Assembly (NCBI RefSeq): GCF_016612505.1
Contig: NZ_JAENRR010000010.1
Coordinates: 1 to 64,000 of the forward strand
Origin: Carboxylicivirga marina
GTDB taxonomy: Bacteria > Bacteroidota > Bacteroidia > Bacteroidales > Marinilabiliaceae
DNA length: 64,000 nt
Direction of reading: 5' to 3'
Position 1 is the stretch's first letter, and each line of letters begins with the position of its first letter. The notes under the pieces were generated by a model that worked only from the letters and a program-made list of their open reading frames with translations, made no database searches and was not told where the DNA came from. The position numbers and the translations under genes were made by a program. Positions 44,113-64,000 of the stretch are shown in pieces.

Positions 44113-44736
44113 TTAAATAATACCATTGTCAATCAATAGTATTATGTGTTCTATCATTTGGTCATCACCATCTTTATGGTATTCCGACTTTAAATTAGAA
44201 CCAAACAAACGGGCAATGCCTTGCCAAAAAAAAGCTGAAACACCTCCTTTATATTGTTTTATTAACTCATATGTAGTGTCACCAGTTTCACGATTTATCA
44301 ACTTTATCAATAATCGACCTTGCGAAAAAGTGAGCTTGCGCAAAGGTCTTTCGAACTCATTAAAGAGCTCTTCTTCAGCTTCGTTTAGGTAGTCTTTCTT
44401 TTCTTTTTCAGAACTAAGCGTTGCTAAATGTGCATTAATATCGTTTATTCTTTCGCCGGCACTTCTTGCAAAAGGTAAAACTTTTTTAATGTTTCGGACT
44501 AACTTGCCATAGCGTCGTTTGTGTCGCTTATTTTTGAATTTATATGGTGGAATGATTGGTATTTCTTTAAGATTAACATGTGGAATAGTATCATTTTCAA
44601 CAATCCGATGCTGCAAAACGAGGTTAATGGAGTCTGCTAACTCTTGCCCTTCTGTCGTCTGTACTTGGAAGGAAATAATTAGCCCAAGACTCATTATTTT
44701 TAAAATATGTTTAGTCAATAATTTAACCTTTTGCAT
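44113..44736 (-). CDS. DUF4294 protein, exported
   Basis: 207 residues from the ATG at 44736, which gives a signal-like N-terminus (LLTKHILKIMSLGLIISFQVQTTEG); the open frame extends to 44772. The body matches DUF4294 of Bacteroidota: RYGKLVRNIKKVLPFARSAGERI, LRKLTFSQGRLLIKLINRETGDTTYELIKQYKG and FWQGIARLFGSNLKSEY. The function is not known to me. Confidence 0.85.
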   Translation of the reverse strand: MQKVKLLTKHILKIMSLGLIISFQVQTTEGQELADSINLVLQHRIVENDTIPHVNLKEIPIIPPYKFKNKRHKRRYGKLVRNIKKVLPFARSAGERINDINAHLATLSSEKEKKDYLNEAEEELFNEFERPLRKLTFSQGRLLIKLINRETGDTTYELIKQYKGGVSAFFWQGIARLFGSNLKSEYHKDGDDQMIEHIILLIDNGII

Positions 44737-44877
44737 ATGACAAAAATATAACGGAATGCCCTTGTTGAGCAAATTAATCTTGCGATTGCCAGTATTTATT
44801 ATTCTAATACGATTGAAATGCTAATCTTTGGCCGAATAATTGATAGTAGGAGAAACTGTAAATTTTAATAAGAAAGT

Positions 44878-46638: not shown

Positions 46639-48462
46639 CTATCGTTGCATGTAAAGTAGTGCAATAGACTTTTGTTTCACCACAACGTCTTTGAATTTTA
46701 GATAGGTAGCATTGCTTATTATCTCAGTACATGAATTAAAGCCCTTAATAACGGATGAGTACTCGTCTTCTATTAAGTGATATGATTCATTATTTGAGTT
46801 GTTAATTATAACCATAAGCACTTCATCATTCATAATGCGTGCATAGGCATACACCTCATTTTGAGGATAAAAGTGAATAAATTCGCCTGATAATAATTCA
46901 GAATGGTCTTTTCTCCAGTTTAGTAAAAGCTTAATCAAGCGATGAAATTGTTTCTGACTGTCATTCATACCTCTGCCGGTAAAACCATTTCGCTCATCGT
47001 CATGCCATCCGCCGGTAAAGTCCTGAGCCAGGTTACTCAAGCCTTTTCGTTTAATGCCATTCATCTTCAATTCTGTACCGTAATATAGAGAGGGGATGCC
47101 GGGCGAAGTAAACAAGTGTGCCATCATCATTTGCAATTGCTTGTTGTCATTATCAGCATTTGTGTAGGCTCGGTTAAGAATATGGTTATCCAGCATGATA
47201 ATGTTGGAATTCATTTGACTACTAGTCAAATTTAAGTGGTATTGATACAATTTATTTATGCCGCTTCCTTTATCTTCATACGGTGAGAAAGCATCCTGAA
47301 GTATGGCCGGATATTGATAATTAACACGTATTGTAGGAATATCTTTATCTAAAGTTTGCTCTCTGCCACTTGAGTTGCTTGCATGATTATCAGCAACAAT
47401 AGTTAAATCGTTATATTCTTTTGATAATGCCTTGTATAACTCATCAATAAATAGAGGTGTATTATTGTGTGCTTGTTCAATTTTAATATACTGTAATCCG
47501 GTTGTTTCTGTCCACCAGATCAAGTGCTGTATCAGTAATTGTCTTACCAATGGATTTTCTTGATTTAGAGTTGGGAAATTACTATGACTCCAATGTTTTC
47601 TAATTTGACTCTTAATAGACTCCGGAATGTATGGATCAGCTAATATATTTGGATGAGGTTCAGGGCTGTTGAAGTCATAAATAATACTATTGAAAAACTC
47701 GGTGTCAATCATGTTTTGGAAGTAAGGATGCTTATTGCCGAGTTGATGAAGTGTAAAAGTTTGGATGAACTTAAGGTTTAACTCCTGGCAGCTATTTATA
47801 AGTGTTTTATAAGTGTTAATTTCGCCAAGACGTTTATCTACCGTATAAAAATTAGTTGGAGCAAGGCGCTTATAGGAATTCATCATTAAATTACTTTCTA
47901 ATATTGGCATAAGCTCCAGCGTAGTACAGCCAAGTTGTGATATATAATCTAATTGCGAGATAATGCCATCAATATCACCTCCATGGATGCCGGTGGGATT
48001 TAAACGATCCTTTTTTTCAAAGTATACCTCTATGTTATCATTTTCGCTGCTTCCATTACAAAAACGATCGGGAATCACTTGATAAATAACATCTCCAGCA
48101 CTAAGGTTTGTTTTTGAAAAGCGTTCTTTTCGTTCTTCAATTCTGAAGGGTTTCTTAATTGGAGGAAGATGCTCAAACTCGAAGGTGAAATAAACAAGTT
48201 GAGGCCTTGCATTTTTTGAAACTTCTGCCTCAATAATATGGAATTGTTTATTAGCGGCTGGGTAATGCTGTATGATATGAAGGCTTGAGTCGTTGACTGA
48301 TATTTTTTTAAGACCAATGGGCGTATTTTCAACAATAATAACAATGTTATTATTTTCCATGTGAGTCCACCAATTTTCAGGCGTAATTTTTAATTCATTA
48401 GCAATGCTAATGACACTTGTAAAAACGAACAGTTTAAGCAATACGATGGTACGACTTTTCAT
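46639..48462 (-). CDS. SusA/neopullulanase-like GH13 protein with altered active site
   Basis: 607 residues, signal-like N-terminus, a starch-binding-like N-domain (about 22-115) and a GH13 barrel. Homology to cyclomaltodextrinase/neopullulanase is plain: IYQVIPDRFCNGS, GIHGGDIDGIISQLDYISQLG, SPGIPSLYYGTEL. The four GH13 motifs are not. Region I reads LKFIQTFTLHQ (canonical Asp is Thr235, Asn-His is His-Gln). Region II reads GLQYIKIEQ (Arg to Lys327, nucleophile Asp to Glu329). Region III reads IVADNH (acid Glu to Asp358). Region IV reads LDNHI (transition-state Asp to Ile428). The frame is intact over full length, so this is not decay. Probably a binding or sensing protein, or a strongly altered enzyme. 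Separated from the maltose phosphorylase gene by a terminator. Confidence 0.85.
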   Translation of the reverse strand: MKSRTIVLLKLFVFTSVISIANELKITPENWWTHMENNNIVIIVENTPIGLKKISVNDSSLHIIQHYPAANKQFHIIEAEVSKNARPQLVYFTFEFEHLPPIKKPFRIEERKERFSKTNLSAGDVIYQVIPDRFCNGSSENDNIEVYFEKKDRLNPTGIHGGDIDGIISQLDYISQLGCTTLELMPILESNLMMNSYKRLAPTNFYTVDKRLGEINTYKTLINSCQELNLKFIQTFTLHQLGNKHPYFQNMIDTEFFNSIIYDFNSPEPHPNILADPYIPESIKSQIRKHWSHSNFPTLNQENPLVRQLLIQHLIWWTETTGLQYIKIEQAHNNTPLFIDELYKALSKEYNDLTIVADNHASNSSGREQTLDKDIPTIRVNYQYPAILQDAFSPYEDKGSGINKLYQYHLNLTSSQMNSNIIMLDNHILNRAYTNADNDNKQLQMMMAHLFTSPGIPSLYYGTELKMNGIKRKGLSNLAQDFTGGWHDDERNGFTGRGMNDSQKQFHRLIKLLLNWRKDHSELLSGEFIHFYPQNEVYAYARIMNDEVLMVIINNSNNESYHLIEDEYSSVIKGFNSCTEIISNATYLKFKDVVVKQKSIALLYMQR

Positions 48463-48647: not shown

Positions 48648-48675
48648 TAAAAAAAGGAGCCCTTAAGCTCCTTTC
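48648..48675 (-). terminator. Terminator of the maltose phosphorylase operon
   Basis: Minus-strand stem AAAGGAGC / GCTCCTTT with a TTAAGG loop, followed by seven T. It sits 24 bases after the GH65 stop and so separates the MFS-pgmB-GH65 operon from the GH13 pseudoenzyme gene. Confidence 0.85.
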
Positions 48676-48698
48676 TTCAGTTTATTAAGATGTTGTTT

Positions 48699-51011
48699 TT
48701 ATTTCGCATCAATGCTTGTTGATTGACCCGGTGATACTTTAACTTCTTGCTCAAATACATTTAACGTTATATCATTCTGAGCATGAGAGATGATACTTAT
48801 CTCTTTATTATTGACAACAACCTCCAAATCATTGCCCATAAAAGAAATACGGAACGAATACTCTTGCCATTGTTGTGGAATAATAGGGTTTAGAAAGAGC
48901 TGTCCGTCATGAACACGCTTGCCACCAAATCCTTCAACGATTGCCATCCACGTACCGGCCATACTTGTGATGTGCAAACCTTCGTGCGCTTCGTGGTTGT
49001 AATCGTCAATGTCAAGGCGCGATGTGCGTAAATACATCTCATAGGCTTTGTCGTAATCGCCTATTTTTGCCGCTAATACAGAGTGTACACAAGGTGATAG
49101 CGATGATTCATGAACGGTACGAGGCTCGTAGAATTCGAAGTTTCGCTTGATGGTTTCAAGGTCATATTCCTCTTCAAAAACATAGATGCCCTGTAAAGTA
49201 TCAGCCTGCTTAATGTAACAGCTGCGTAATATACGATCCCACGACCAGTACTGGTTAATTGGACGTTCGGCAGGGTTTAAGTCTTTAACAAGAATTTGCT
49301 CTTTGTCCATAAAGCCATCTTGTTGCATAAATACATTCAGTTTTTCGTTGAACGGGAAATGCATATTGCCAATAATATCTTCCCACCTTGGTATTTCTTC
49401 ATGGTAGTTGAAAGAAGTTTTGGCTATTATCTCATTATAACGAGTTTCATTCATGGCTTTTACTTTAGCCAATGCTTCAATGGTGTATTTCAAACACCAA
49501 ACCGCCATTTTATTTGTATACCAGTTATTGTTGATGTTGTTTTCGTATTCGTTTGGTCCGGTAACACCAAGCATCACGTACTTCTGTCGTTCTTCGGAGA
49601 AGGTAACGCGCTGACTCCAGAATCGAGAAATGCCCATCAATACCTCCAATCCATATTCAGCCAGGTAAGCCTCGTCGTTGGTATGGCGTATATAATTATG
49701 AATAGCGAAAGCAATAGCGCCATTACGGTGAATCTCTTCAAATGTTATTTCCCACTCATTGTGACACTCTTCACCATTCATGGTGACCATAGGGTAAAGA
49801 GCAGCACCGTTTTTAAATCCTAGCTTTTCAGCATTTTTAATGGCATTTTCCAAGTGCTTATAGCGATAGACCAGAAGGTTACGTGTTACTTCAGAAGGTG
49901 CCGTGGCAATGTAGAAAGGAACGCAATATGCTTCTGTATCCCAATATGTTGAGCCGCCATATTTTTCGCCGGTAAATCCTTTGGGTCCTACATTTAAACG
50001 TTCGTCTTCGCCCGTGTAAGTCTGATTGAGGTGGAAGATGTTAAAGCGTATACCTTGTTGTGCTGCAACATCACCTTTAATACGGATGTCGCTTAGTACC
50101 CATTTATCGGCCCACATTTTAATGTGTTCAAGCAATAAGGCATCAAACCCTTTATTGAAACCAGCGGCAGTCACTTTCTTAGTCGCCGAAAGTAATTCAT
50201 CTTTTGAGTAATTATGCGAACTACATACACCGGCAATTTTATCAATTGTGAAGCATTCGCCTTCTTTTACTGTTCTTTCAATGCGATTAGCTACCCAACT
50301 TTCCTTTTTTAATACCTCCGGAGAAATATTAAGCTTAGAATCGCCGATACTGGCAGCTATTTTCATTCCAAAGGCGGCCCTAAAACCTAGCTTTTTTGTT
50401 TCTGTTACTAAATACGCTTCGCCATTGTGTGCTTCCATCTCAATGATGTTCCAGAACTTCTCGTCATAGTTAGAGTCTTCATTCTCAACATCTCCATCCA
50501 GGTAGGCAGTAAAGGCTATCTTGCCATCGAAATTAAGCGGCGTTACCGAATAGCGGATAGCTCCATTTTCGGTGTCGGCCATGCTTACAAAGCGCTTGGC
50601 TGAAATTTCCACTTTTTTGCCGTCGTCCATGGTCGCTGTGAACTCACGAAGCAAATACCCTTCTTTCATGTTAAGGGTACGCTTGAAGTTTTCAGTTTTA
50701 CAGGTGTATAAGTCAAGGTAATGACCATCAACCTGTACGTCAATTCCAATCCAGTTTGGACTGTTTAATACTTTGGCAAAATACTCTGGATAACCATTTT
50801 TCCACCAGCCAACACGTGTTTTATCAGGGTAATAGATTCCAGCTACATAGCTGCCTTGTAAAGATGGTCCGGAATAGGTTTCTTCAAAATTGGCTCGTTG
50901 TCCCATCTTACCGTTTCCGAGGCTAAAAATACTCTCGGAAGACTGATGGTTATCAGGGTTGAAGCCCTCTTCTATGATGCACCACTCATCGTGTTTTAAA
51001 TACTCCTTCAT
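48699..51011 (-). CDS. mapA: GH65 maltose phosphorylase
   Basis: 770 residues, usual for GH65, no signal peptide, so cytoplasmic. It contains the N-terminal beta-sandwich and an (alpha/alpha)6 barrel with YGGSTYWDTEAYCVPFY and the general-acid Glu in HNEWEITFEEIHRNGA, then the phosphate-site HESSLSPCVHSVLA and HEGLHITSMAGTWMAIVEGFGG. It splits maltose with phosphate into glucose and beta-glucose-1-phosphate. The next upstream gene encodes the matching beta-phosphoglucomutase, which supports maltose rather than trehalose or kojibiose as substrate, though those GH65 variants cannot be fully excluded. Confidence 0.92.
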   Translation of the reverse strand: MKEYLKHDEWCIIEEGFNPDNHQSSESIFSLGNGKMGQRANFEETYSGPSLQGSYVAGIYYPDKTRVGWWKNGYPEYFAKVLNSPNWIGIDVQVDGHYLDLYTCKTENFKRTLNMKEGYLLREFTATMDDGKKVEISAKRFVSMADTENGAIRYSVTPLNFDGKIAFTAYLDGDVENEDSNYDEKFWNIIEMEAHNGEAYLVTETKKLGFRAAFGMKIAASIGDSKLNISPEVLKKESWVANRIERTVKEGECFTIDKIAGVCSSHNYSKDELLSATKKVTAAGFNKGFDALLLEHIKMWADKWVLSDIRIKGDVAAQQGIRFNIFHLNQTYTGEDERLNVGPKGFTGEKYGGSTYWDTEAYCVPFYIATAPSEVTRNLLVYRYKHLENAIKNAEKLGFKNGAALYPMVTMNGEECHNEWEITFEEIHRNGAIAFAIHNYIRHTNDEAYLAEYGLEVLMGISRFWSQRVTFSEERQKYVMLGVTGPNEYENNINNNWYTNKMAVWCLKYTIEALAKVKAMNETRYNEIIAKTSFNYHEEIPRWEDIIGNMHFPFNEKLNVFMQQDGFMDKEQILVKDLNPAERPINQYWSWDRILRSCYIKQADTLQGIYVFEEEYDLETIKRNFEFYEPRTVHESSLSPCVHSVLAAKIGDYDKAYEMYLRTSRLDIDDYNHEAHEGLHITSMAGTWMAIVEGFGGKRVHDGQLFLNPIIPQQWQEYSFRISFMGNDLEVVVNNKEISIISHAQNDITLNVFEQEVKVSPGQSTSIDAK

Positions 51012-51072: not shown

Positions 51073-51726
51073 CTAGTTTAGTTCCATTAATTTCTCAAAG
51101 CTCATCTGGTGTAAGCCATCAATAACCATATTTGCTTTGCCAAGTACATCAGGCGATCCAATGCCTATGCACTTCATATTACCTGCCAAGGCAGCTTCAA
51201 CGCCCGCTTCGGCATCTTCAAATACAACACACTCATCCGGTTTAACATTTAAAGCTTCTGCGCCTTTTAAGAATACCTCAGGATCAGGTTTTGCTTCTGA
51301 TACTTTAGTGCCATCAATAATGGCTTCGAAAAGATGTGTTAATTGCAAACGATCTAAGATCGTCATGGCATTTTTACTAGCTGAACCCAAAGCAATTCTA
51401 ATTCCTTTGGCCTTTAACTCTTTTAAGAATGCTTCTGCACCATCCAGTATTTCATCTGGTTGCATTTTCAAAATGAATGTACGATAGTTTTCATTCTTCT
51501 TTTCTGCGAGTTTTAGCTTATCTTCATCACTTAATGTCACGCCTCCAATCTCAAGAAGGATGTTTAGTGAAGTCATGCGGCTAACACCTTTCAAACGTTC
51601 ATTATCTTCTTCGGTAAACTCAAAGCCAAGCTCTGCGGCCAGTTCCCTCCAGGCTATATAATGATACTTGGCAGTATCAACAATAACTCCATCTAAATCA
51701 AATAAGCAAGCTTTAATTTGTCCCAT
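51073..51726 (-). CDS. pgmB: Beta-phosphoglucomutase
   Basis: 217 residues of the HAD superfamily with the beta-PGM pattern: LFDLDGVIVDTAKYHYIAWRELA (nucleophile Asp and the His/Trp cap start), LKGVSRMTSLNILLEIGG, ALGSASKNAMTILDRL and KPDPEVFLKGAEAL...FEDAEAGVEAA. It converts beta-glucose-1-phosphate to glucose-6-phosphate. Middle gene of the MFS-pgmB-GH65 operon, 12 bases after the MFS stop. Confidence 0.95.
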   Translation of the reverse strand: MGQIKACLFDLDGVIVDTAKYHYIAWRELAAELGFEFTEEDNERLKGVSRMTSLNILLEIGGVTLSDEDKLKLAEKKNENYRTFILKMQPDEILDGAEAFLKELKAKGIRIALGSASKNAMTILDRLQLTHLFEAIIDGTKVSEAKPDPEVFLKGAEALNVKPDECVVFEDAEAGVEAALAGNMKCIGIGSPDVLGKANMVIDGLHQMSFEKLMELN

Positions 51727-51738
51727 AAGTAAAAGTAA

Positions 51739-53094
51739 TTAAGACTGTTCCTGAGTTTTTGTATTAACAAACAATACGGTTATAGAGCCGATAAGCATTA
51801 ATGAACCAGCCAGTACCATTATGTAAATACCATTGCCGTTGAATACGTTTTTTAATATTGGGCCACCAAATACGCCACTTAATATCTGAGGTATTACAAC
51901 AGTAAGGTTGAATAGTCCCATGTAAATTCCTATACGCTTTGCTGGAATTGCTCCTGACAAGATCATATAAGGCATGGCCAAAATACCGGCCCAGGCAATT
52001 CCGATACCTATCATTGAAACGACAAGCATGTTTTTGTCATCGAATAAATACATGGACAGTAAACCAAGGCCACCAGCTAATAAAGAAAAGGCATAAATGG
52101 TTTTTCTATTGGTAAGGCTAATAAGCTTTGGTAGTACGATTGAGAACAAGGCGGCTGTTAAACTATAAATGGCAAAGCACAAGTTAACCCAGTCGCCTGC
52201 ATTATTAAAAATAGCTCGTTCAGCATCGCTAGCTGTTTCTGCATTAAAATCAACAGCTACACCATAATAATGCTGCGAAATGGCTGTAGTGGCATACACC
52301 CACAATAAGAAAAATGGAAACCATGAGAACAACTGAACGACTGCCAATTGTTTCATTGTTTTAGGCATATTCATTAATAAAGTGAAAAAGCCTTCTTTCT
52401 TCTCTTTATCTTCTTGTGTAATGTTTTTATAAGCCTCAAATTCTTTAGGTGGGTATTCTTTTGTTTTAATTACAGTGACTAAAACACTAAGCAAAAGTAG
52501 TGCGCCGCCAATATAAAACGACCAAATAACCGATGGTGCTACTTGACCTGCTTCCGGGTTGTTTTCGATTCCACCCATTGCCAAAATAAAAGGCAAAGCA
52601 GAACCAATAACAGCTCCTGCATTAATTAAGAAGCTTTGAACAGAATAGCCAAGGTTACGCTGTTCTTCGGGTGTCATATCTGCAACCAGTGCCCTAAAAG
52701 GCTGGAAGGTGACATTAAAAGAACCATCCATTAGGGCGAGCATAGCCACACCAAAAAACAATACACCAGCACCACCTGCTTTCATTATTAAAGGCGCATT
52801 AGGCATAAAAAACATGGCAATCATCGAAACAATAGCTCCTCCTAATATATAAGGAGAACGACGCCCGATGCGTGTCCAGGTTTTATCACTGGCAGCACCA
52901 ACAACCGGTTGTACAATAAGCCCCATTATTGGAGCAACTAACCAAAAGAATGACAAATTATGCGGGTCAGCTCCCAGGCTTGTTAAAATACGACTGGCAT
53001 TGGCATTTTGCAATGCAAAGCCAAACTGTACTCCTAAAAAGCCGAAGCTTAAATTCCAAATTTGCCAAAATGATAACTTTGGTAATTGTTTCAT
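51739..53094 (-). CDS. MFS transporter, SLC45/GPH-like, probable maltose importer
   Basis: 451 residues, 12 membrane helices. The first segment SFWQIWNLSFGFLGVQFGFALQNANASRILTSLGADP and the loop SDKTWTRIGRRSPYILGG (RxGRRxP) are typical of the sucrose/maltose SLC45-like MFS group used in Bacteroidota maltose loci. It heads the operon with pgmB and mapA. It would carry maltose or short maltodextrins across the inner membrane with H+ or Na+; specificity is inferred from the operon. Confidence 0.88.
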   Translation of the reverse strand: MKQLPKLSFWQIWNLSFGFLGVQFGFALQNANASRILTSLGADPHNLSFFWLVAPIMGLIVQPVVGAASDKTWTRIGRRSPYILGGAIVSMIAMFFMPNAPLIMKAGGAGVLFFGVAMLALMDGSFNVTFQPFRALVADMTPEEQRNLGYSVQSFLINAGAVIGSALPFILAMGGIENNPEAGQVAPSVIWSFYIGGALLLLSVLVTVIKTKEYPPKEFEAYKNITQEDKEKKEGFFTLLMNMPKTMKQLAVVQLFSWFPFFLLWVYATTAISQHYYGVAVDFNAETASDAERAIFNNAGDWVNLCFAIYSLTAALFSIVLPKLISLTNRKTIYAFSLLAGGLGLLSMYLFDDKNMLVVSMIGIGIAWAGILAMPYMILSGAIPAKRIGIYMGLFNLTVVIPQILSGVFGGPILKNVFNGNGIYIMVLAGSLMLIGSITVLFVNTKTQEQS

Positions 53095-53885: not shown

Positions 53886-54917
53886 TTATCGTACGTTATG
53901 TCCCAATTGCGACGATGTGCGTTCAACCAGTTCAGGAGTAAATATCTTTGTTTCGAATTCTTCATCTTCAACCGTGCCTTCAATATGGCCAATTAATAAG
54001 CGCATGGCAGCCTGACCAATATCGTATCCTTTTTGCTCAACCGTAGTAAGTGGTGGATAGGCAATGTTGGCATTTGGCCCATCTCCAAAACCTGCTACTG
54101 CGATGTCTTTCGGAATTGAATAACCATTGCGTTGTAGTACCTGCATAGCTGCTATAGCAGTGCTGTCGTTAACCGCAAATATGCCATCTATTTCCGGTGC
54201 CAAACGAATAATGTCATCAGCCTTGGCAAACACAGCTTCGCGCGTGTCACATTTAATAATATAGCGATCATCACTTACGAGTTTATGCTCCTTTAAGGCA
54301 CTGGTAAAGCCTTCTTTGCGGTTTTTTCCTATTAATAAATGTTGCGGGGCTGCCAGGTGCATTATTTTCTTACAACCTTTACCGATTAGGTGCTTTGTGG
54401 CAATGCGGGCACCTTCGAAGTCATCTGCAATTACACGATCAGAGCTAATCTGTTCACAAATCCGGTCAAAAAATACCACTGGAACGCCATTCTCACGCAA
54501 GTTTTCAAAGTGTGTAAATTCATGGGTGTTTTTGCTCATTGATACTAAAATGCCATCTACTCTGTTGTCAACTAATGCTTGCAGGTCAATGACTTCGCGC
54601 TGGTAGTTTTCGTTGGTTTGGCATATGATAGCATTGTAGCCACGGCCGTAAGCGACATCTTCAATACCACTAATTACTGATGAGAAAAAATGGTGTACAA
54701 TTTCTGGTATGACTATGCCTATCGTATTGGTTTTACTGCTTCGCAAACTTAATGCTAAGGCATTGGGCCTGTAATTAACTTTCTCGGCAAATGTTTGGAC
54801 TAACTGTTTGGTTTTAGGGCTGATATCAGGGTGATCTTTTAGGGCACGAGAAACAGTTGATGGGGAAATGCCAAGTATTCTGGCTATATCTTTTATTGTG
54901 ATAGGTTGTGACTTCAT
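53886..54917 (-). CDS. LacI-family transcriptional regulator of the maltose locus
   Basis: 343 residues. The N-terminal HTH ITIKDIARILGISPSTVSRALKDHPDIS and hinge NYRPNALALSLRSSKTNTIGIVIPEI are standard LacI, followed by a periplasmic-binding-like sugar domain (VDGILVSMSK, FDRICEQISSDRVIADDFEGARIATKHLI, GFGDGPNANIAYPPLTTVEQ). It lies between the two arms of the locus and palindromes with core GCAAACGTTTGC flank it, so those are its likely targets. The operators lie upstream of the -7 boxes rather than over them, which suits activation better than repression. Inducer probably maltose or a derivative. Confidence 0.9.
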   Translation of the reverse strand: MKSQPITIKDIARILGISPSTVSRALKDHPDISPKTKQLVQTFAEKVNYRPNALALSLRSSKTNTIGIVIPEIVHHFFSSVISGIEDVAYGRGYNAIICQTNENYQREVIDLQALVDNRVDGILVSMSKNTHEFTHFENLRENGVPVVFFDRICEQISSDRVIADDFEGARIATKHLIGKGCKKIMHLAAPQHLLIGKNRKEGFTSALKEHKLVSDDRYIIKCDTREAVFAKADDIIRLAPEIDGIFAVNDSTAIAAMQVLQRNGYSIPKDIAVAGFGDGPNANIAYPPLTTVEQKGYDIGQAAMRLLIGHIEGTVEDEEFETKIFTPELVERTSSQLGHNVR

Positions 54918-61786: not shown

Positions 61787-61806
61787 CATAAATTAGTATA
61801 GATGAT

Positions 61807-61837
61807 AAAAAAGCCGCCCCTTGTGGCGGCTTTTTTT
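61807..61837 (+). terminator. Terminator or attenuator between susE and the amylase gene
   Basis: A perfect 12-bp stem aaaaaagccgcc / ggcggctttttt with a 6-base loop and a T7 run. The amylase ATG follows only 13 bases later, so read-through of this hairpin may set the ratio of binding proteins to enzyme. Confidence 0.85.
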
Positions 61838-61849
61838 AAATTAATACCT

Positions 61850-64000
61850 ATGAGCAATAACTACATAAAGTTTTTAAAGAGGATAAGGTGTGTATTGGTC
61901 ACCTTTTTTGTGTTTGGGGCAGCTAATGCTCAGGTAGTGACCTCCGATCCCGCTATACCTATTGAATCCAATCGTGTGACAATTACCTTTTATGCAGATA
62001 AAGGTAATGAGGGCTTGAAGGATTACACCGGGGATGTATATGCTCATACGGGCGTTATTACCGATAAAAGCTCCGGAGGTAGTGATTGGAAATATGCACC
62101 AACTTGGGGTGATAATGATGCCAAATACAAGATGACTCGCACGGCTACAAACACATATACTTTAGAAATTACACCCAATATACGTGATTATTATGGTGTA
62201 GCTGCGGGTGAAGTAATTGAACAAATGGCCTTCGTTTTTCGAAGTCACGATAATTCTAAAGAAGGAAAGGATACAGGTAATAAAGATATTTTTGTAGATG
62301 TATCAGCAGAAGAACTGTCAGTTAGCATTGTAAAACCAATCAACAATAGTATACATGAGAGAGGTTCAACAGTACAGCTGCAGGTTGATGCATTACTGAA
62401 TGATAAGCTTGAGGTTAAAATTAATGGGGATCCAGTAGTAAATGATGCAATTAGCACTTTTACTTATGATATTACCAATGTGCAGCTCGATGAATATGTC
62501 ATAGAAGCTATTGCTACTGGTGGTTCAGATGTGGTAAATGTTTTCAGTACTTTTTTTGTAAAAGGAGATGTGGTGACTGAGCCAATGCCCGACGGATTAC
62601 GCCGAGGTGTGAATGTTATTGACGAATCTACTGCAACCGTAGTTCTTTTTGCGCCAAACAAAGAGTATGTTTATTTAGTTGGTGATTTTAATGATTGGGC
62701 ACCATCAAATGCTGCCATGATGAAGAAGGATGAAGATTTTTTCTGGTTAAGCATTGATAATCTGGATGCCAATGAAGAATATGCTTACCAGTTTTGGATT
62801 GATGGCGATGTTAAAGTCGCTGATCCATATGCTACTAAGGTGCTTGATCCCTGGAACGACAAATACATACCTGAAAGCATATATCCGAATTTAAAAGATT
62901 ATCCTGACGGGCAAGATGAGATTGTGAGCGTGTTCACAACGGCCGATCAAACCTTTAACTGGGAAGTACCTGGCTTTGTAGCTCCAGAACCAGATAAACT
63001 TATTGTTTATGAAGTCCTGATTCGTGATTTTACCGATAATCAGGATATTAAAACCATCACCGATACCTTGTCTTATCTGAAACGACTTGGAGTAAATGCC
63101 ATTGAACTGATGCCTTTTAATGAGTTTGAAGGTAACGATAGCTGGGGCTATAATCCATCATTTTATTTTGCCACCGATAAGGCTTATGGAACGGTTGAGG
63201 ATTACAAAATATTTATTGATGAGTGCCACAAGGAAGGTATTGCAGTGATTATGGACATGGTATTGAATCATTCGTATGGGCAATCGCCATTTGCGCGAAT
63301 GTATCTGGGTGAAGATGGTAAGCCATTAAACAATCCATGGTATAATACAGACCATAATATGGCAGAGCCGGCTGCTCAATGGGGGTACGACTTTAATCAT
63401 GAAAGTATTCATACACAAGAACTGATTGACAGTATTTGTTCTTATTGGATGAGTGAATATAAAATCGATGGTTTCCGATTCGATTTCACAAAAGGTTTTA
63501 CCAATACGCCATATCCGGTTGGGGATTGGGCAAGTAAATATGATGCTGACCGTATTGCTATTTTGAAAAGGATGGCCAGTGCAATTTGGTACAGAAAAGA
63601 TGATGCTTTGGTCATTTTTGAGCATTTATCTGAAAACAGTGAAGAAAAGGAGTTGTCCAATCATGGTAATGGTATTTTATTCTGGGGTAATGCCAATCAT
63701 GACTATAATGAAGCAACCATGGGATATCCTTCGAATCTTAGGTGGGTATCGTATGAAGAACGTGGTTGGGACGTACCTGGCATCATTAATTATATGGAGA
63801 GTCATGATGAGGAGCGCCTGATGTATAAAAACCTTCAGTATGGCAATTCGGAAGGTGACTATTTTGTTCGGGATTTAAAAACGGCATTACGCAGATGTGA
63901 AGCAGCAGCAGCATTTTTCATTCCTGTTCCGGGTCCTAAAATGATATGGCAATTTGGTGAGTTAGGCTTTGACTTAAGTATTAATCGTTGCACCGATGGA
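61850..64000 (+). CDS. GH13 alpha-amylase, exported (3' end outside window)
   Basis: The frame runs from the ATG at 61850 without a stop to the window end (717 codons). A signal peptide (VLVTFFVFGAANAQ) is followed by an N-terminal beta domain (about 26-165), an Ig/CBM-like stretch, an E-set resembling CBM48 (ATVVLFAPNKEYVYLVGDFNDW, about 265-350) and a GH13 barrel from about 390. All catalytic elements are present: MDMVLNH (Asp469, Asn473-His474), GFRFDF (nucleophile Asp545), IFEH (acid Glu591) and SHDEER (His652-Asp653). It cleaves alpha-1,4 glucans outside the cell for uptake by SusC/SusD. Fourth gene of the operon. Confidence 0.93.
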   Translation, partial: MSNNYIKFLKRIRCVLVTFFVFGAANAQVVTSDPAIPIESNRVTITFYADKGNEGLKDYTGDVYAHTGVITDKSSGGSDWKYAPTWGDNDAKYKMTRTATNTYTLEITPNIRDYYGVAAGEVIEQMAFVFRSHDNSKEGKDTGNKDIFVDVSAEELSVSIVKPINNSIHERGSTVQLQVDALLNDKLEVKINGDPVVNDAISTFTYDITNVQLDEYVIEAIATGGSDVVNVFSTFFVKGDVVTEPMPDGLRRGVNVIDESTATVVLFAPNKEYVYLVGDFNDWAPSNAAMMKKDEDFFWLSIDNLDANEEYAYQFWIDGDVKVADPYATKVLDPWNDKYIPESIYPNLKDYPDGQDEIVSVFTTADQTFNWEVPGFVAPEPDKLIVYEVLIRDFTDNQDIKTITDTLSYLKRLGVNAIELMPFNEFEGNDSWGYNPSFYFATDKAYGTVEDYKIFIDECHKEGIAVIMDMVLNHSYGQSPFARMYLGEDGKPLNNPWYNTDHNMAEPAAQWGYDFNHESIHTQELIDSICSYWMSEYKIDGFRFDFTKGFTNTPYPVGDWASKYDADRIAILKRMASAIWYRKDDALVIFEHLSENSEEKELSNHGNGILFWGNANHDYNEATMGYPSNLRWVSYEERGWDVPGIINYMESHDEERLMYKNLQYGNSEGDYFVRDLKTALRRCEAAAAFFIPVPGPKMIWQFGELGFDLSINRCTDG

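Follow-up and report, generated by a model that had tools for sequence, protein, structure and literature searches.

The stretch of DNA analysed here (the window) comprises 64,000 nucleotides of a Carboxylicivirga marina contig (NZ_JAENRR010000010.1) and carries, on its reverse strand, a frame of 607 amino acids with zero internal stops whose product is related to the neopullulanase SusA. Upstream of it, and read in the same direction, lie genes for a GH65 enzyme, a HAD protein, an MFS sugar transporter, and a LacI-family regulator (Table 1). From the gene order we take the GH65 protein to be a maltose phosphorylase and the HAD protein to be a beta-phosphoglucomutase, and we refer to the group as the maltose operon. 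A second GH13 gene, of another kind, runs past the end of the window; its translation contains FRFD, FEH, and SHD, and the genes preceding it are, to judge from their sequences, presumably SusC-, SusD-, and SusE-like.

Three Pfam domains, each above its cut-off, follow one another in the window protein in the order PF09087, PF00128, and PF10438, and provide the domain set of subfamily GH13_46 (a Flavobacterium-type N domain, the barrel, and the C domain). The closest solved relative found by phmmer is the GH13_46 cyclomaltodextrinase 1h3g (253 bits, residues 27-603), and the second is SusA 9fyz (223 bits). The alignment with 1h3g, the three domains, and the lack of stops bear out the original prediction of a full-length, SusA-like GH13 protein in an intact frame. 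Leaders were judged by eye in this protein and in all other members of the 28-member clade described below, and export is to be read as predicted from the leader. Structure prediction gave models of too low confidence for use, both from the single sequence (pLDDT 34) and from an alignment of the window protein with four distant GH13s (pLDDT 37); these four, from Lachnospiraceae (22%), came from a search of genome contigs and were used only in that alignment.

Table 1. Features of the locus, with positions in the window
Feature	Position	Strand	Basis
Gene of a putative pseudoenzyme derived from GH13_46, 607 aa	46639..48462	-	ORF, Pfam, phmmer, clade alignment and tree
Signal-peptide-like N terminus, about residues 1-22, lipobox not apparent	48397..48462	-	Sequence, by eye
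Cyc-maltodext_N, residues 25-112	48127..48390	-	Pfam PF09087
Alpha-amylase barrel match, residues 128-472	47047..48081	-	Pfam PF00128
Cyc-maltodext_C, residues 529-603	46654..46878	-	Pfam PF10438
Motif I, TFTLHQ (235-240) for DxxxNH	47743..47760	-	1h3g alignment and clade comparison
Motif II, KIE (327-329) for RxD	47476..47484	-	1h3g alignment and clade comparison
Motif III, D358 for acid/base Glu	47389..47391	-	1h3g alignment and clade comparison
Motif IV, NHI (426-428) for NHD	47179..47187	-	1h3g alignment and clade comparison
Promoter-like element TTGN-19-TANNTTG, beginning 71 nt upstream of the start codon	48504..48533	-	Pattern match
Predicted intrinsic terminator between the GH65 gene and the gene above	48650..48677	-	Hairpin and T run, custom script
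GH65 maltose phosphorylase-like gene	48699..51011	-	Pfam PF03632
Beta-phosphoglucomutase-like HAD gene	51073..51726	-	HAD match
MFS sugar transporter	51739..53094	-	Domain match
LacI-family regulator	53886..54917	-	Domain match
CBM48-GH13 of another kind, canonical motifs, runs past the window end	61802..64000	+	Domain match, translation; L045 1803-4643

Catalytic residues in the window protein and its clade

In the phmmer alignment with 1h3g, which is gap-free at the motifs, DVVLSH of motif I has become TFTLHQ (Asp to T235), RID of motif II KIE (Arg to K327 and Asp to E329), GEEW of motif III ADNH (Glu to D358), and NHD of motif IV NHI (Asp to I428). All four motifs are rewritten as originally predicted, and the numbering given for T235, H239-Q240, K327, E329, D358, and I428 is correct; sequence alignments of the window protein offered no alternative placement of canonical catalytic residues elsewhere in the barrel. 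We take the -1 subsite to consist, in TAKA-amylase numbering, of H80, Y82, H122, R204, D206, E230, H296, and D297; seven of these eight residues are replaced, the sole unchanged one being H427 (H296). CSR-V reads FPTLN, against MPDLN in the GH13_46 definition, and CSR-II ends in KIEQAHNN, without the two Tyr of that subfamily. The Glu after the proton donor is absent as well (ADNH), a trait that discriminates little, many canonical relatives reading GEA, GES, or GET. Another GH13_46 trait, the adjacent Trp pair before CSR-II, is kept (W316, W317) and occurs in at least 95% of both the clade and the canonical set.

We searched 71 genomes of the window organism's family and read 126 distinct SusA-like proteins of at least 300 bits from loci of the family, order, and class, leaving out matches below 300 bits, duplicates, sub-sequences, and family matches or loci fetched later. 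Sorting by D235, D329, and E358 divided them into 98 canonical and 28 non-canonical proteins, the latter figure being a lower bound because not all lower-scoring family matches were read. That the canonical set has these three residues in 98/98 is by construction, since they define it; the equivalents of R204, H80, Y82, and D297 are likewise present in 98/98. The 28 non-canonical proteins come from 28 genomes and 12 genera of a single family, including 11 of the 14 genomes of the window's genus. All 28 proteins lack the acid Glu and the motif I Asp, so none has the intact triad of GH13_46. A quick tree of 127 rows, built with neither bootstrap nor outside root, places them on one side of a branch with an SH-aLRT of 100 (29 pseudoenzyme rows, the window protein and its genome copy both being included); the program flagged one long branch (G014) and several clade rows of unusual composition. 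An equally quick tree of 52 rows selected from both sets, also without bootstrap or an outside GH13 root, has the same branch at SH-aLRT 100, with 1h3g on the canonical side.

Position by position, the clade has T, S, or N at 235 (21, 5, and 2 members), Q, K, or E at 240 (19, 8, and 1), K, R, or I at 327 (20, 7, and 1), E, D, Y, or C at 329 (16, 10, 1, and 1), and D, A, S, or T at 358 (22, 4, 1, and 1). His stands at 239 in 22/28, and ten different residues occur at 428, the four members with Asp there having A, S, or T at 358. The exchange of nucleophile and acid that had been proposed holds for the window protein itself (E329, D358) but not as a general trait: the combination is found in 11/28 members and Asp329 is retained in 10/28, with both positions acidic in 20/28. 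Position 183 is Trp in the canonical set and acidic in 27/28 clade members, position 159 is Arg in 98/98 canonical proteins and I or V in 28/28 of the clade, and Asp at 298 has a frequency of 1.0 against at most 15%. The clade has lost the canonical W183, Y333, and W360. All its members have D425, which is also found in 81/98 canonical proteins, and scaffold residues are kept in both sets (D132-R133-F134, H160-G161-G162-D163, S196-Y197, W316-W317, Y461-G462, and E464).

The losses concentrate at the active site: among the 123 columns with at least 90% conservation in the canonical proteins, the clade has lost 24, of which 15 fall in the 33 columns of the active-site windows (hypergeometric p ~4e-5, with windows of our own choosing). 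Ten core pocket positions have a mean conservation percentile of 57th in the clade against 99th in the canonical set. Within the clade, positions 183, 235, 239, 240, 327, 329, and 358 lie at percentiles 69-82, and positions 200, 333, 360, and 428 vary freely (percentiles 5-19). The loss of the catalytic residues is thus common to 28 orthologous proteins from 12 genera, and a recent private loss among orthologues with normal motifs is not borne out. A divergent GH13_46 protein at L157 7076-8911 (G029:C3) keeps its triad, with NQ for the NH of motif I and ANHD in motif IV; it may have drifted separately.

Two overlapping draws of genomes, 395 from the class and 393 from the order, were searched with profiles; the best 30 loci of each included no clade member outside the family, all loci from outside the family being canonical. 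On the same draws we ran a DNA pattern for [IV]HGGD, which recovers 24/28 known members and 0/98 canonical proteins, and which could therefore miss a rare outside member. It matched ten genomes of the order draw (4 family carriers and 6 others) and ten of the class draw (2 carriers and 8 others), and the 6 + 8 non-carriers encode no relative at E 1e-3. Among viral contigs, 78 pattern matches included zero relatives.

The ratio dN/dS was usable for two pairs of clade genes, two further pairs not being computable and a third giving 0.075 at saturated dS. For G009/G011 it is 0.10, against 0.053 for the canonical paralogue, 0.030 for GH65, 0.028 for pgmB, and 0.052 for the MFS gene; for G019/G462 it is 0.063, two neighbouring genes giving 0.056 and 0.066. 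These estimates point to purifying selection on the clade gene in both measurable pairs, and the gene is therefore constrained. Its product has a mean identity of 0.457 versus 0.770 for the canonical paralogue over 45 pairs from ten genus members, and is the lower in 45/45. A further clade member (G452, L190 5517-7387, beside elbB) is split over two overlapping frames, through loss or sequencing error.

Gene neighbourhood and predicted transcription

Outside the window's genus, 18 GH65 loci of the family could be compared. A canonical SusA gene follows GH65 in 14 (G032, G021, G027, G019, G453, G455, G467, G034, G029, G015, G462, G463, G014, and G022), the two frames overlapping or lying within about 10 nt of each other in 8/14, and does not follow it in four (G468, G028, G464, and G465). 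One of these canonical SusA genes (L189 5936-7763, in G463) is divided between two frames. The clade gene occupies this SusA slot in the window's genus, and the canonical copy of the window's own genome lies elsewhere (G000:C77). GH65 is found within 1.5 kb in 11/28 carriers, all of this one genus (for G007 the distance in this tally is a start-codon artefact, the true gap being 136 nt). In G022 it lies 2.4 kb away, with SusA between, so that SusA and the clade gene are in tandem, and in G014 the distance is 6.0 kb. The slot beside a maltose operon, to which the original prediction had drawn attention, is thus real in those 11 carriers, but the link is weak, other genera mostly having canonical SusA in it.

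Three carriers, the drafts G023, G456, and G457 (93, 92, and 86% complete), gave no GH65 match, and the last two (92 and 86%) no other SusA-like match either; since these genomes are drafts, the missing genes are not proof of absence. Besides the clade gene, the only GH13 found in G456 is GlgB-like (G456:C214, L234 922-2931) and below NCBIfam cut-offs, and an exported amylase is not visible. Conversely, three of the 14 genus genomes (G004, G008, and G012) have the operon without a copy of the gene, and no relic of it was found in their operon loci; on this distribution the gene is dispensable. With the operon found without the gene and the gene without a GH65 match, the clade gene seems neither needed by the maltose operon nor dependent on it.

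A hairpin followed by a T run stands in the gap between GH65 and the clade gene (136-236 nt) in 11/11 genus members, according to a custom script run without a shuffle control. The same script finds one between SusA and the clade gene of G022, and none in the three GH65-SusA gaps examined; a generic terminator scan gives the hairpin at 48650..48677 for the + strand only. The promoter-like element lies 66-72 nt before the start in 6/6 closest species (6 of the 11 gaps examined), a pattern derived from these same gaps afterwards and occurring six times in the whole window, both strands counted. A sigma-70 scan showed no excess (31 found, 29.2 expected), and a stricter search of the gaps with the Bacteroidota promoter consensus gave no consistent site. 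On these predicted signals, the gene is probably transcribed as a unit of its own in the window's genus.

Downstream of the gene, on the same strand and within 1.5 kb, elbB is found in 14/28 carriers from several subgroups (e.g., L154 8436-9080 and L182 8521-9162), and four of these neighbours are named glyoxalase ElbB by NCBIfam. We considered ElbB as a partner. Since elbB is a general gene and is not found close to the window's copy, in our judgement it is an inherited neighbour. The window has, 1.9 kb downstream (44113-44772), a homologue of a DUF4294 protein (L059 6856-7476), and a number of the other carrier loci likewise have a gene of this type downstream.

Function of the clade and comparison with known systems

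The loss shared by orthologues, together with the constraint (dN/dS 0.10 and 0.063), supports the maintained pseudoenzyme or remodelled enzyme that had been proposed at the outset; we appear to be dealing with a protein that has been maintained, not with a gene that is broken. Our preferred reading, to which we give a probability of roughly 70%, is that of an exported, non-hydrolytic GH13_46 paralogue, a pseudoenzyme with a remodelled pocket that acts by binding rather than cutting. The catalytic residues would have been lost within the family, most simply once, the -1 glucose site being dismantled and the three-domain scaffold retained. After export, the protein would act by binding or partner contact through a rebuilt pocket, with E/D183, T/S/N235, H239, Q/K240, K/R327, E/D329, and the old D425 as its consensus. 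Such a pocket may hold a partner loop or a ligand that is small and polar, with the SusA-type scaffold presenting it in the periplasm. GH13 hydrolysis, we infer, is absent from the clade, and the ligand is probably no longer ordinary maltodextrin. The new pocket consensus, the predicted terminators, and the carriers without a GH65 match also favour this reading. Weighing against it are the carboxylates at both 329 and 358 in 20/28 members, the published activity of a GH13 with one altered catalytic residue (BmaN1), the unremarkable conservation of the pocket as a whole, the small number of usable dN/dS pairs, and the dispensability of the gene.

More tentatively, the scaffold could have been neofunctionalised, its new polar site (acidic 183, T/S/N235, H239, Q/K240, K/R327, E/D329) serving a different chemistry or a non-starch periplasmic ligand independently of starch catabolism. 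New chemistry is possible because two carboxylates persist in 20/28 members and BmaN1 tolerates one triad change. A remodelled enzyme that uses E/D329 and D358 for another glycosidic substrate or a non-hydrolytic step we consider unlikely. The acidic pair in those 20 members would suit it, as would purifying selection, the new residues at 183, 235, 239, 240, and 327 that are common to 22 to 28 of 28 members, and the percentiles of 69-82 at these positions and at 329 and 358. However, 6/28 members have A, S, or T in place of the acid and 2/28 have Y or C in place of the nucleophile, the pocket positions 200, 333, 360, and 428 are free to vary (percentiles 5-19), and no one catalytic set is common to all 28.

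A protein of the maltose operon that binds or senses maltodextrin, as the original prediction had it, is not supported; it now appears less likely than was then proposed, and we give it a small chance. GH65 does lie directly upstream in 11/28, in the slot of the relatives' canonical SusA, and the operon is still nearby in G022 and G014; but a predicted terminator separates operon and gene in 11/11, the three draft carriers have no GH65 match, and the sugar contacts are lost (W183, Y333, and W360, besides the residues we take for H80 and Y82). Plant ISA2 is a non-catalytic GH13 partner of ISA1. By analogy, the clade protein might be a subunit or chaperone of an active SusA paralogue, and the tandem with canonical SusA in G022 would agree with this, as would the oligomer contacts made by the N domain of a homologous enzyme (PMC9781549). 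G456 and G457, drafts at 92 and 86%, nevertheless carry the gene without another SusA-like match, and the two genes are apart in other genomes, so that such a partnership is slightly less probable again than maltodextrin binding. Both of these readings overlap with the preferred one, and the odds do not sum to one. Very improbable is a GH13 hydrolase working with odd catalytic residues in the manner of BmaN1, which is active with His for the third Asp (PMC5347038): one triad residue is changed in BmaN1, whereas in the window protein all three are changed, along with Arg and both the Asp and the His of motif I. Finally, a decaying relic without function would explain the faster evolution (0.457 versus 0.770), the split copy of G452, and the lack of a copy in 3/14 genus members, but is hardly credible against the low dN/dS values and 28 open frames in 12 genera.

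Plain domain searches score the clade as alpha-amylase, which calls for caution in counting GH13 matches as starch-degrading capacity. The 28 species, in one well-supported clade, also offer a natural series on the fate of a glycoside hydrolase scaffold after catalysis, and many of their genomes have an apparently active paralogue for comparison. In the literature on GH13 pseudoenzymes or inactive relatives and on GH13_46, the clade was not described among the matches listed, a set mostly outside subscription papers.

The nearest known system is the cyclomaltodextrinase of Flavobacterium sp. 92 (1h3g, 3edd-3edk), with which the window protein shares the alignment over 27-603, the N, barrel, and C domains, and the WW pair; in the window protein other residues stand in place of the triad, the Asp and His of motif I, the Arg, the MPDLN Asp, and the aromatic contacts. 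SusA (9fyz, GH13_46), matched at 223 bits, is catalytic; in the clade, acid Glu and motif I Asp are missing in 28/28, and in the window's genus a transcription unit of its own is predicted for the gene. SusA is periplasmic (PMC12578637). By sequence, the clade is homologous to GH13_46 yet departs from it in CSR-V, the CSR-II end, and the triad. It would fall outside the subfamily by design, because GH13_46 was defined from sequences for which an intact catalytic triad was an inclusion criterion (PMC9781549). The BmaN1 group (GH13_45) has an 'aberrant catalytic triad' (PMC5347038); BmaN1 is changed in the third residue only and is active. It resembles the window clade in that a non-canonical GH13 triad is common to a whole group, and differs in that all motifs are changed in the window clade. 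Plant ISA2 and the heavy chains rBAT and 4F2hc are likened to the clade by description, not by sequence: they keep the GH13 fold without catalysis, as is proposed for the clade, although they are plant proteins or animal transporter subunits. The two heavy chains are animal non-enzymatic relatives of GH13 (PMC9781549).
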